Source: Actinomycetes bacterium (GTDB lineage: Bacteria; Actinomycetota; Acidimicrobiia; Acidimicrobiales; Bog-793). Taken from it: DNA of 35,534 nt. Below, piece after piece: positions 8,812-34,598 of the stretch. The number at the start of each line of letters is the position of its first letter. The stretch's first letter is position 1. The translations under genes were made by a program, and so were the position numbers. The notes under the pieces were generated by a model. It made no database searches and was not told the DNA's origin. It saw nothing but the letters and a program-made list of their open reading frames with translations. The stretch spans positions 1-35,534 of the forward strand of contig JAKCCH010000025.1 in assembly GCA_021838945.1 (NCBI GenBank), read 5' to 3'.

Positions 8812-9252
8812 TCAGGTCTCGACGACGAGGGTCACCGGCCCGTCGTTCGTGAGCCGGACCATCATGTGAGCCCCGAACCTGCCGGTTGAGACTTCTGCAC
8901 CGAGTGCGCGCAAAGTCTCAACCACCCGCTCGACGAGCGGCTCCGCCTGAGGCCCCGGAAGCGCCTCCACGAAAGAAGGCCTCCGCCCACGGCTCGTGTC
9001 GCCGTACAGGGTGAACTGGCTGATGACGAGCAGGGGCGCCGACAGCTCCGCACAGGACCGGTTCATGCGACCCTCGTCATCGGCGAGGATCCGGAGGTTC
9101 CAGAGCTTCTGCGCCATGGCGTCGGCGCTGGCGACCGTGTCTCCGTGCTTCACTCCGAGGAGCACGCAGAGGCCGGTGCCGGAGAGCTCACCGACTACCT
9201 CGCCGGCGACGGAGACCGTGGTCCCGTCGACGCGCTGGACGACAGCTCGCAT
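8812..9252 (-). CDS. dtd: D-aminoacyl-tRNA deacylase
   Basis: MRAVVQRVDGTTVSVAGEVVGELSGTGLCVLLGVKHGDT...SQFTLYGDTSRGRRPSF...TGRFGAHMMVRLTNDGPVT, canonical Dtd motifs. Confidence 0.96.
   Translation of the reverse strand: MRAVVQRVDGTTVSVAGEVVGELSGTGLCVLLGVKHGDTVASADAMAQKLWNLRILADDEGRMNRSCAELSAPLLVISQFTLYGDTSRGRRPSFVEALPGPQAEPLVERVVETLRALGAEVSTGRFGAHMMVRLTNDGPVTLVVET
8884..8923. repeat. 40-bp palindromic-ended repeat element, copy R1 (inside dtd)
   Basis: ggttgagacttctgcaccgagtgcgcgcaaagtctcaacc; 11-bp arms GGTTGAGACTT/AAGTCTCAACC. Confidence 0.75.
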
Positions 9253-11433: not shown

Positions 11434-11555
11434 CGCTGGCGAACGCTGGGGAACGTTGGCGAACGCCGGGGAATCGCCAGGGAACCTTGGGTGACAGGTC
11501 GGGCGAGCCCAGGCGAGGTCGGGCGAGCCCAGGCGAGGTCGGGCGAGCCCGGGCG
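11434..11555. repeat. Two adjacent 20-bp-period tandem repeats
   Basis: cgctggcgaacgctggggaa/cgttggcgaacgccggggaa (2 units, 11434-11473), then aggtcgggcgagcccaggcg x3 (11496-11555), in the convergent intergenic region. Confidence 0.85.
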
Positions 11556-18963: not shown

Positions 18964-19003
18964 GGTTGAGATTGCCTGCACCACTGCGACAGCAATCTCA
19001 ACC
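18964..19003. repeat. 40-bp palindromic-ended repeat element, copy R2
   Basis: ggttgagattgcctgcaccactgcgacagcaatctcaacc; flanks extend the inverted repeat (CCGGCGGTTGAGATTGC...GCAATCTCAACCGCCGG, 17-bp arms). Confidence 0.85.
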
Positions 19004-27220: not shown

Positions 27221-27260
27221 GGTTCAGATTGTTGCCGAGATCGGGGGTGAACACTCAACC
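27221..27260. repeat. 40-bp palindromic-ended repeat element, copy R3
   Basis: ggttcagattgttgccgagatcgggggtgaacactcaacc. Confidence 0.75.
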
Positions 27261-27271
27261 GGCGGCGTGGC

Positions 27272-27311
27272 GGTTCAGGTTTCGCCCTCGGTGGCGACAG
27301 CAGTCTCAACC
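27272..27311. repeat. 40-bp palindromic-ended repeat element, copy R4
   Basis: ggttcaggtttcgccctcggtggcgacagcagtctcaacc. Confidence 0.78.
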
Positions 27312-27372: not shown

Positions 27373-27412
27373 GGTTGAGATTTCACCCGCCCGGCGTGCA
27401 GCAACCTCAACC
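27373..27412. repeat. 40-bp palindromic-ended repeat element, copy R5
   Basis: ggttgagatttcacccgcccggcgtgcagcaacctcaacc. Confidence 0.8.
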
Positions 27413-31727: not shown

Positions 31728-34598
31728 ATGCCTCAGACGACCCATTCCGAGCAGCCGTCGGGACCGGCCGGCGAGGCGTTCGCGATGACGGCGGGCAACC
31801 CCTCCACACCGGTGCCGACACCCCACGCCGTCCTCGTCGTCGGCATGCATCGGAGCGGCACCTCCGCCACCGCCTCCGCTCTCGGCGAGCTCGGTCTCGT
31901 GCTGCCGCGGGAGGACGATCTGCTGGGCGCCAGCTTGGGCAACGAGCGTGGGCACTTCGAGAGCCGGTCCCTGCTCGCCTTGTCCGACCGGATCCTCGCC
32001 GCGCTCGGCCGCAGTTGGGACGATCCACCCGAGGCAGGCGAGGTCGAGGAGGAGCTCGATCGCCTCGTCGAGCGGTTCGGTGACGAGGCGCCCGGCGCCT
32101 TCGAAGCGGCGTTCGAGGCACCCGACCGGGCCGTCGTCTGGAAGGACCCTCGCACCGCTGTGCTGCTGCCGTTCTGGCGAACGGTCCTGCGTCGGCCGAT
32201 CGTCGCCGTCCTCGTCACCCGTGACCCGCTCGCTGTTGCCCGCTCCCTCGCCCGGCGAAACGTCATCCCCCTCCCCACCGCCCTCTCCCTCTACGAGCGC
32301 TACTGCCGACTGGCCCTGACCGGGTTGTCGGGGGTGCCCTGCTACGTCGCAGAATTCGAGGACTCGCTCGAGCACCCCGAGCAATGGCGGGCTCGGGTGG
32401 CGGCGTGGCTGGGCGGGCTCGGGATCGCTGCGCGCGCCAGCACCGACAACGGCACGAGCAGCGAGACCGGCAGCGGCAGCGGCAGCGACAACGGCAGCGG
32501 CGGCGAGACCCGGGTGAGCCAAGGCGCCGCGCACCGAGGTGCCGTGCCCTTCGACGCCTCCCTTCGCCACGAACGTCCGAGTGGTGCGAGCGACACCGCG
32601 GTGCTCCCCGAGCAGCGGAAGATCTTCGACGCCATCGTCGCCATGCGCGGTCCGCACGAGGCCTTCACGCCACCCGAGCTCGGCCCGGAGTCGTCGTGGG
32701 CGACCAACGACTTGCGCCACCGTCACAATCTCAACCGCCTGTGGCAGGGGTTCGAGTGGATCGGGTGGGAGATGGCCCGCTTGCCGGTGCCGCCGGCCGT
32801 CGACCGGCCCGTGATCGAGGGTGCCCGGTACCCGAAGGACGCGACCGACGACGAGGCCCGGTACCACGCCTGGCTCCGCCAGCGCGGCGAGGCGACCCAC
32901 ATCGGATCGGGCGAGGGCCTCCCGAAGGCGGCGACGCGGGCGCCCTCGGGATCCCGGCCGCGCTTCTCGGTCGTCGTCCCCGCCTATCGGCCTCCCCTCT
33001 GGGCGATCGACCGTTGTGTGGGCTCTGTCCTCCTGCAGGACTACGCCGGCTGGGAGCTCGTGATCGTGGACGATGCTTCCGGCGACGAGGCGCTCTCGGG
33101 GAGGCTCCGCCGGATCGAGGACGTCGACCCACGCATCACAGTGAGGGCTCGCCCCGAGAACGGGGGCATCTCCGCCGCGACGAATGAGGGGGTTGGCGGG
33201 GCGGGTGGGGAATGGGTCGTGTTTCTCGACCATGACGACGAGCTGCCGCCCTGGGCTCTCCGCCGGCTCGCGTCGGTCATCGATGACGCTCCGGCGGCGC
33301 GCCTCGTGTACTCGGACGAGGACAAGATCGACGAGTCGGGACGGCGCCACATGCCGGCCTTCAAGCCCGACTGGTCCCCCGACCTGTTGCTGTCGAACGC
33401 ATACATGTGCCATGTCCTCGTCGTGCGCCGGGACCTGTTCGACGAAGTAGGGGGTCTGCGCTCCGAGTTCGACGGTGCCCAGGACTACGACCTGATGCTG
33501 CGGGCGACCGAGCGCCTCGGGGACGGCGAGATCGTCCACGTGCCCGAGACCCTGTACCACTGGCGGACGCTCACCGGCTCGGCGTCGGGGGATCCGAACG
33601 CCAAGCCCTGGGCATTCGAGGCGGGTCGCCGAGCGGTCGAGGACGCCGTACGGCGACGTGGCATCGAGGCCACCGTGGACTCGCATCCCCGCGTGCCCGG
33701 CAGCTACTTCGTGCGCCGGGCCGTCGCCGGGCGGCCGCTCGTGAGCGCCATCATCCCGTTCCGGGACGAGCCGGCGCTCCTCGCCGCCTGCTACCGAGCC
33801 TTCGTTCATTCGCCCGGTCACGACGAGTTCGAGCTGCTCCTCGTCGACAACGACTCTGCCCTGCCGGAGACCCAGGCCGTCGCCGCCCGCCTCGCGGAAG
33901 ACCCGCGGGTGCGCCTGCTCGAGGCTCCGGGCCCGTTCGACTGGGTGAAGATCAACAACGAGGCGGCAGGCAAGGCACGCGGAGACGTGCTGTTGTTCAT
34001 GAACAACGACGTCGAGGCTTGCTCCTCCGATTGGCTCGCCCACCTCGTGGCACAGGCACAGCGGGAGGAGGTCGGCGCCGTAGGCGCCCGGTTGCTGTTC
34101 CCCGACGGGAGCATCCAGCATGGCGGGGTGGCCGTCGGTGTGTGCTGGGGAGCGGCGCACATCCAGCAAGGGCTCGACGGGACGAGACCCGGCTACCTCT
34201 CGAGCGTGTCGGTCGTGCGCAACACCTCGGCCGTGACGGGCGCCTGCATGATGTCACGGCGGTCGGTCTTCGAGTCCCTCGGCGGCTTCGACGAGTCGTT
34301 GCCGGTCGCGTTCAACGACATCGACTACTGCCTGAGGCTGCGGGAAGCGGGCTACCTGATCGTGTACACACCGCTCGCGGAGCTCGTCCATCACGAGTCG
34401 AAGAGCCGCGGGCACACCGACGACGCCAAGGAGCTCCCCTACTTCCGCAAGAGGTGGCGGGAGATCCTGCTCGACGGCGATCCCTACTACAACCCGAACC
34501 TGGGCCGGTTCGACTCGTTCTGCCGGCTACCCAACGAGGAGGACGAGGAGCGATGGCAGACCTTCCGGTCGATGCTCGACGTGTCGTCGACGAGCTGA
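31728..34598 (+). CDS. Sulfotransferase-like domain fused to two GT2 glycosyltransferase domains
   Basis: N-terminal VLVVGMHRSGTSATASALGELGLVLPREDD; middle RFSVVVPAYRPPLWAIDRCVGSVLLQDYAGWELVIVDDASGDEA...VFLDHDDELPPWAL...; C-terminal VSAIIPFRDEPALLAACYRAF...LLLVDNDSA...LLFMNNDVEA...GGFDESLPVAFNDIDYCLRLREAGY. Confidence 0.9.
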   Translation: MPQTTHSEQPSGPAGEAFAMTAGNPSTPVPTPHAVLVVGMHRSGTSATASALGELGLVLPREDDLLGASLGNERGHFESRSLLALSDRILAALGRSWDDPPEAGEVEEELDRLVERFGDEAPGAFEAAFEAPDRAVVWKDPRTAVLLPFWRTVLRRPIVAVLVTRDPLAVARSLARRNVIPLPTALSLYERYCRLALTGLSGVPCYVAEFEDSLEHPEQWRARVAAWLGGLGIAARASTDNGTSSETGSGSGSDNGSGGETRVSQGAAHRGAVPFDASLRHERPSGASDTAVLPEQRKIFDAIVAMRGPHEAFTPPELGPESSWATNDLRHRHNLNRLWQGFEWIGWEMARLPVPPAVDRPVIEGARYPKDATDDEARYHAWLRQRGEATHIGSGEGLPKAATRAPSGSRPRFSVVVPAYRPPLWAIDRCVGSVLLQDYAGWELVIVDDASGDEALSGRLRRIEDVDPRITVRARPENGGISAATNEGVGGAGGEWVVFLDHDDELPPWALRRLASVIDDAPAARLVYSDEDKIDESGRRHMPAFKPDWSPDLLLSNAYMCHVLVVRRDLFDEVGGLRSEFDGAQDYDLMLRATERLGDGEIVHVPETLYHWRTLTGSASGDPNAKPWAFEAGRRAVEDAVRRRGIEATVDSHPRVPGSYFVRRAVAGRPLVSAIIPFRDEPALLAACYRAFVHSPGHDEFELLLVDNDSALPETQAVAARLAEDPRVRLLEAPGPFDWVKINNEAAGKARGDVLLFMNNDVEACSSDWLAHLVAQAQREEVGAVGARLLFPDGSIQHGGVAVGVCWGAAHIQQGLDGTRPGYLSSVSVVRNTSAVTGACMMSRRSVFESLGGFDESLPVAFNDIDYCLRLREAGYLIVYTPLAELVHHESKSRGHTDDAKELPYFRKRWREILLDGDPYYNPNLGRFDSFCRLPNEEDEERWQTFRSMLDVSSTS

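Follow-up and report, generated by a model that had tools for sequence, protein, structure and literature searches.

The site parS is a dyad that is bound by a dimeric HTH protein and whose copies are tolerated inside coding sequence; the att sites of large serine recombinases are likewise dyad-symmetric and about 40 bp in length. In the Ter macrodomain of E. coli, the 13-bp target matS has 23 copies across a domain of 800 kb (PMC3330122), and MatP-dependent organisation has been called unique to enterobacteria (PMC7174722). REP and REPIN elements are described (PMC3733652) as palindromes of 20-40 bp that occur in many copies and mostly between genes.

The window, which is the whole 35,534-nucleotide stretch of actinomycete DNA that was analysed, holds five copies of a dyad (starting at 8884, 18964, 27221, 27272, and 27373), every one exactly 40 bp long, and related sites occur in its genome (G000; 3.04 Mb in 178 contigs, 81% complete) and in two others (G006 and G010), all three carriers being draft MAGs. 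These sites resemble matS in being short palindromes with about 20 copies; restriction to one chromosome domain, as matS has it, is strong in G000, and the spread is broader in G006 and G010. They differ from it in that they are 39-40 bp long with the half-site GSYGGTTGAGRTTKYT and are unrelated to the 13-bp matS in sequence, in that no MatP is reported from their host phylum, and in that their region does not lie at the terminus in the frame of the complete relative G029. The likeness to parS consists in a dyad, predicted here to serve a dimeric HTH protein, with a limited region and coding-embedded copies, whereas the 16-bp parS consensus TGTTTCACGTGAAACA does not match the dyad in sequence or length.

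A palindrome within the dtd coding sequence

The copy at 8884-8923 (GGTTGAGACTTCTGCACCGAGTGCGCGCAAAGTCTCAACC; this and the other sites are given without strand) lies in the minus-strand open reading frame 8812-9252 (146 aa), which we take to be dtd (D-aminoacyl-tRNA deacylase) following the first-pass annotation and what is known of the family. Its layout is GGTTGAGACTT-N18-AAGTCTCAACC, and it lies about 79% along the gene; the next gene, which is ketopantoate reductase-like, starts 190 bp downstream. The in-frame inverted repeat with 11-bp arms that had been noted from the window letters is therefore real, with perfect arms and 18 bp between them, and so is the atypical codon use noted with it: third-position GC falls to 50% over the site's 14 codons, where the remainder of dtd has 88.6% and the called genes as a whole 87% (P = 9e-4; genes called with a simple codon-usage script), and GTT, ACT, TTG, and TCA each make up 4-8% of usage for their own amino acid. 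Perfect 8-bp arms were found in just 1.6e-4 of random synonymous recodings of the site, weighted by codon usage.

Codon alignment of dtd from relatives, the check that had been proposed, located the string GTG GTT GAG ACT TTG CGC ... TCA ACC GGC in only two genomes of the family, G000 and G006, and the G006 copy (L047:15276-15315) occupies the same codons of the gene. The two Dtd proteins are 69-71% identical, and at conserved Dtd residues 9 of 10 codons are identical within the site vs 42 of 82 elsewhere (P = 0.02). These comparisons support the view that codon choice is bent to keep the site inside genes, as would be expected under selection for a DNA motif.

A site family shared by three genera

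When near-perfect half-site pairs were counted in the contigs of the window genome and in neighbour genomes, 20 pairs had the 40-bp spacing and every other spacing had at most one. Allowing up to 2 mismatches, the pattern GGTTGAGA-N24-TCTCAACC gave 16 copies in the whole G000 assembly vs 0 for the reversed control, a number that chance would not come near. A sequence model of 46 positions, built from 22 sites, matched about 16 places in G000, 11 in G006, and 19 in G010, which represent three genera of one family (kinship as labelled in the dataset). The half-site is approximately GSYGGTTGAGRTTKYTNNCCC, with conservation strongest at positions 1-13 and 16; the outer ends are the most conserved part, the centre is variable, and flanks beyond about 3 bp are not common to the copies. 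Most G010 sites have a 39-bp form, GTGGTTGAGRTTGTGGCCCC..GGGGCCACAACCTCAACCAC.

The model gave nothing convincing in the remaining 32 genomes of the family, and the motif was not found elsewhere in a 397-genome sample of the order, which was searched with stricter filters. Pattern matches in Bacteroidota MAGs scored as chance with the model, and viral carriage was likewise rejected, as the two exact loose-pattern matches, on one viral contig, do not score. A literature search on the motif, on palindromes in Acidimicrobiia, and on matS in actinobacteria returned nothing relevant to this motif. Also present in the window are a lone half-site, CAATCTCAACC, at 32726-32736 in a large glycosyltransferase gene, with no partner arm, and a 20-bp unit, AGGTCGGGCGAGCCCAGGCG, three times in tandem at 11496-11555.

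Gene context of the sites

Outside dtd, the window has one site at 18964-19003, between convergent YceI and MFS genes (Pfam names), and three between the divergently oriented genes for a carboxylesterase and an NlpC/P60 protein, at 27221-27260, 27272-27311 (51 bp from the first, start to start), and 27373-27412 (101 bp from the second). The latter gap is also occupied in the other two genera, by one copy each in G006 (L046:9756) and G010 (L049:3839), and the NlpC gene starts 63-70 bp downstream of a site in all three. Additional shared places include the moeA-moaA site of G000 and G006, and the site between a PDZ protease and a glyoxalase gene in G006 and G010, for which the G000 copy lies on the opposite side of the protease gene. 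A site downstream of prs in G000 has a degenerate counterpart in G010. In G006 and G010 a 2'-5' RNA ligase-GNAT gene carries GCGGT(T/C)GAG...GGGGCAACAATCTCAACCACT embedded at identical codons; this copy and that in dtd are clean natural cases in which codon choice has imposed a predicted DNA-binding site on a protein sequence that was already there. In G000, copies also lie within a methyltransferase gene and at the 3' end of mazG, and since the methyltransferase genes of G006 and G010 are without one, site positions turn over. Separately, a linker segment of Mfd in G006 and G010 (L045:3855-3891 and L094:9253-9282) carries part of a site, and the Mfd of G000 is without this segment.

These positions bear on the proposal that one transcription factor uses the sites as operators of a local regulon, under which the 3'-end copies (dtd, mazG, methyltransferase) would regulate the next gene. 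Of 40 sites, about 29 lie wholly between genes vs some 12% expected, just 3 lie between convergent genes, several loci hold two or three tandem copies, and the distance to the NlpC gene is similar across three genera, all of which would suit an operator. However, 45% of intergenic sites fall within 75 bp of a gene start, the same share as for random intergenic 40-mers, and within 50 bp the figures are 21% vs 34%, a comparison that is approximate as the gene starts come from a simple script. The operator reading is weakened by this lack of enrichment; furthermore, the genes adjoining the sites have no common function or shared pathway, nor is occupancy of 2.5% of the genome expected of a regulon. 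We consider this reading rather unlikely.

Substitution rather than insertion

Dtd proteins of relatives that are without the palindrome have the same length at the site, in agreement with the first-pass observation of no length disruption, which held against the family Dtd proteins covering the site. The palindrome thus arose by substitution and was then kept, and was not inserted. Of the two origins offered at that stage, element insertion or replacement is not supported by these equal lengths, while selection for a motif gains from the codons kept in a second genus and from the existence of a site family.

The same evidence weighs on the idea of a palindromic repeat, mobile or REP-like, that multiplied locally and landed in genes by chance. 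Such a repeat would agree with short, partly tandem palindromes dispersed in intergenic space, with the presence of a REPIN-like family in the relative G029, and with the Mfd linker of G006 and G010, the sole place compatible with insertion. The dyad sites are, like REP and REPIN elements, many-copy palindromes that are mostly intergenic. They differ in being overlaid in genes with no insertion in dtd and no gap at the site in the RNA-ligase gene (two carriers compared), in keeping orthologous positions across genera, in having arms that do not covary, and in their restricted chromosomal range in G000; moreover, the copies share no flank beyond about 3 bp and number just 16 or so. This reading is already weakened and appears quite improbable.

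As regards G029 itself (L102-L161), a de novo search for a related motif gave inverted pairs of GTCGGTTGATGTCAGACATCAACCGAC, about 56 bp apart and dispersed round the genome (for example C1:909518, 1087149, 1250942, 1489648, 1806961, and 3076913); as they turn up well away from the region too and are REPIN-like, they were set aside as unrelated. A second palindrome family there, CCAGAAGG..CCTTCTGG, also runs in steps of about 57 bp.

Independence of the two arms

In none of G000, G006, and G010 does an arm resemble its partner within the site more closely than it resembles arms of other sites; over positions 8-19 in G000, identity is 0.47 within sites vs 0.54 between them. In dtd, the right arm reads GTC TCA in one genus and ATC TCA in the other, a difference that breaks pairing and keeps the half-site consensus. 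Because the arms behave independently, a hairpin is not favoured, and half-sites in double-stranded DNA read by a protein dimer are. The alignments thus point to dsDNA half-sites for a predicted dimeric protein, and of the "DNA/RNA motif" suggested initially it is the RNA part that is not supported, as the arms do not covary.

Selection on a hairpin formed by RNA or single-stranded DNA (a terminator or attenuator, for instance) is accordingly very improbable: the predicted hairpins are strong (z of -3.7 to -10), but strong prediction is expected of any long palindrome, none of the three genomes has an excess of arm matching within sites, the dtd right-arm difference between G000 and G006 breaks complementarity, few copies lie between convergent genes, and an Rfam scan of the window returned a tRNA alone, with no curated RNA family at the sites. 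If a site-specific recombinase recognised the sites (as attB-like dyads of about 40 bp), their length and symmetry would fit what large serine recombinases use as att sites, but the many fixed copies, the variable centre, the conservation mostly at the outer ends and not at a crossover core, and the lack of any scoring phage match make this, too, a very slight prospect.

Chromosomal distribution

All strong copies in G000 lie on 4 of its 178 contigs, namely C6 (the window), C81, C112, and C144, which together amount to 75 kb or 2.5% of the assembly; the single match outside, on C161, is weak. For 10 independent loci to fall on at most 4 contigs, the simulated probability is about 2.5e-7, with contig sizes extrapolated from 25 known contigs. 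The G000 site contigs are syntenic neighbours that form one chromosome neighbourhood: contig C49 of G006 links C144 to C6 by synteny, and the span 1.20-1.285 Mb of G029 holds the orthologues of genes on C112, C81, and C144, its dtd being at 1.04 Mb, with gene order shared only in part. As dnaA of G029 is at 4.68 Mb of 4.775, the core region is mid-arm there, and not at the origin or terminus; third-position skew in the site-bearing genomes themselves is too slight to show where the region lies relative to either.

Five full sites of G006 are on contigs syntenic with the G000 site contigs, and a sixth is on a contig that a single gene links to them. The sites of G006 and G010 are spread over more contigs than those of G000, and G006 contigs C175 and C130 and G010 contig C178 carry genes whose best G029 matches are far from the core region, so that a single compact neighbourhood is established for G000 only. 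Bin contamination as a cause of the clustering is not supported, in that the site contigs match the bin in tetranucleotides and GC3; the reported contamination of G000 is 2.7%, vs 2.5% of the assembly in site contigs, and a closely related strain may be their source.

Candidate binding proteins

The analysis turned up no cognate protein. Among six genomes searched, an extra ParBc protein is present only in those with sites, and it was rejected as the cognate binder because it proved to be a ParB-methyltransferase fusion encoded in prophage-like surroundings. These fusions of a ParB-like and a DNA methyltransferase-like part are encoded on G000 contig C128 (L179:6130-7326), G006 contigs C189 and C10 (L180 and L181), and G010 contig C396 (L182). 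Canonical ParB occurs in 5 of the six genomes, away from the sites; in G000, which is 81% complete, neither canonical ParB nor DnaA was found. A parS scan gave none in G000 or G006, with none within 2 mismatches in G006 though ParB is present there. A parS-like sequence, TGTTTCACGGGAAACA, one mismatch from canonical, lies just upstream of parA at L184:5277-5292 (G010) and at G007:C72:23218, and another parS-like sequence lies by dnaA in G029.

Discussion

Taken together, the fixed length, the codons kept in dtd, and the places shared across genera indicate that these are very probably a conserved family of dsDNA sites, predicted to be bound by protein. Under the reading that we prefer, a protein would bind the 39-40-bp dyads either as a dimer or by placing two DNA-binding domains on each half-site, and the copies would jointly mark or organise a region in a macrodomain-like or centromere-like manner, a role we infer. 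Individual positions would turn over between genera with the neighbourhood staying occupied, and a copy inside a gene would be tolerated via codon adjustment.

A region-organising role for the family is possible, and we lean somewhat against it; the other sampled families of the order are without the motif, which for a basic chromosome function would be uncommon except where the motif diverges fast. The whole statement, in which lineage-specific dyad sites in dsDNA, predicted to be dimer-bound, together mark or organise a chromosome region, falls just short of an even chance in our estimation. Our best guess is that such region marking would work like matS or parS and belong to neither. It is a tentative proposal, which we would sooner doubt than assert, that a dimeric protein on 40-bp dyads constitutes a previously undescribed chromosome-domain system in a lineage of Acidimicrobiales type. 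Such a system would parallel MatP/matS and ParB/parS without being related to either, its positions would turn over, and some of its copies would be embedded in coding sequence. Few site systems organise a single region of a bacterial chromosome, and we know of none described for this lineage; the family of sites reported here is both sharply defined and open to test.
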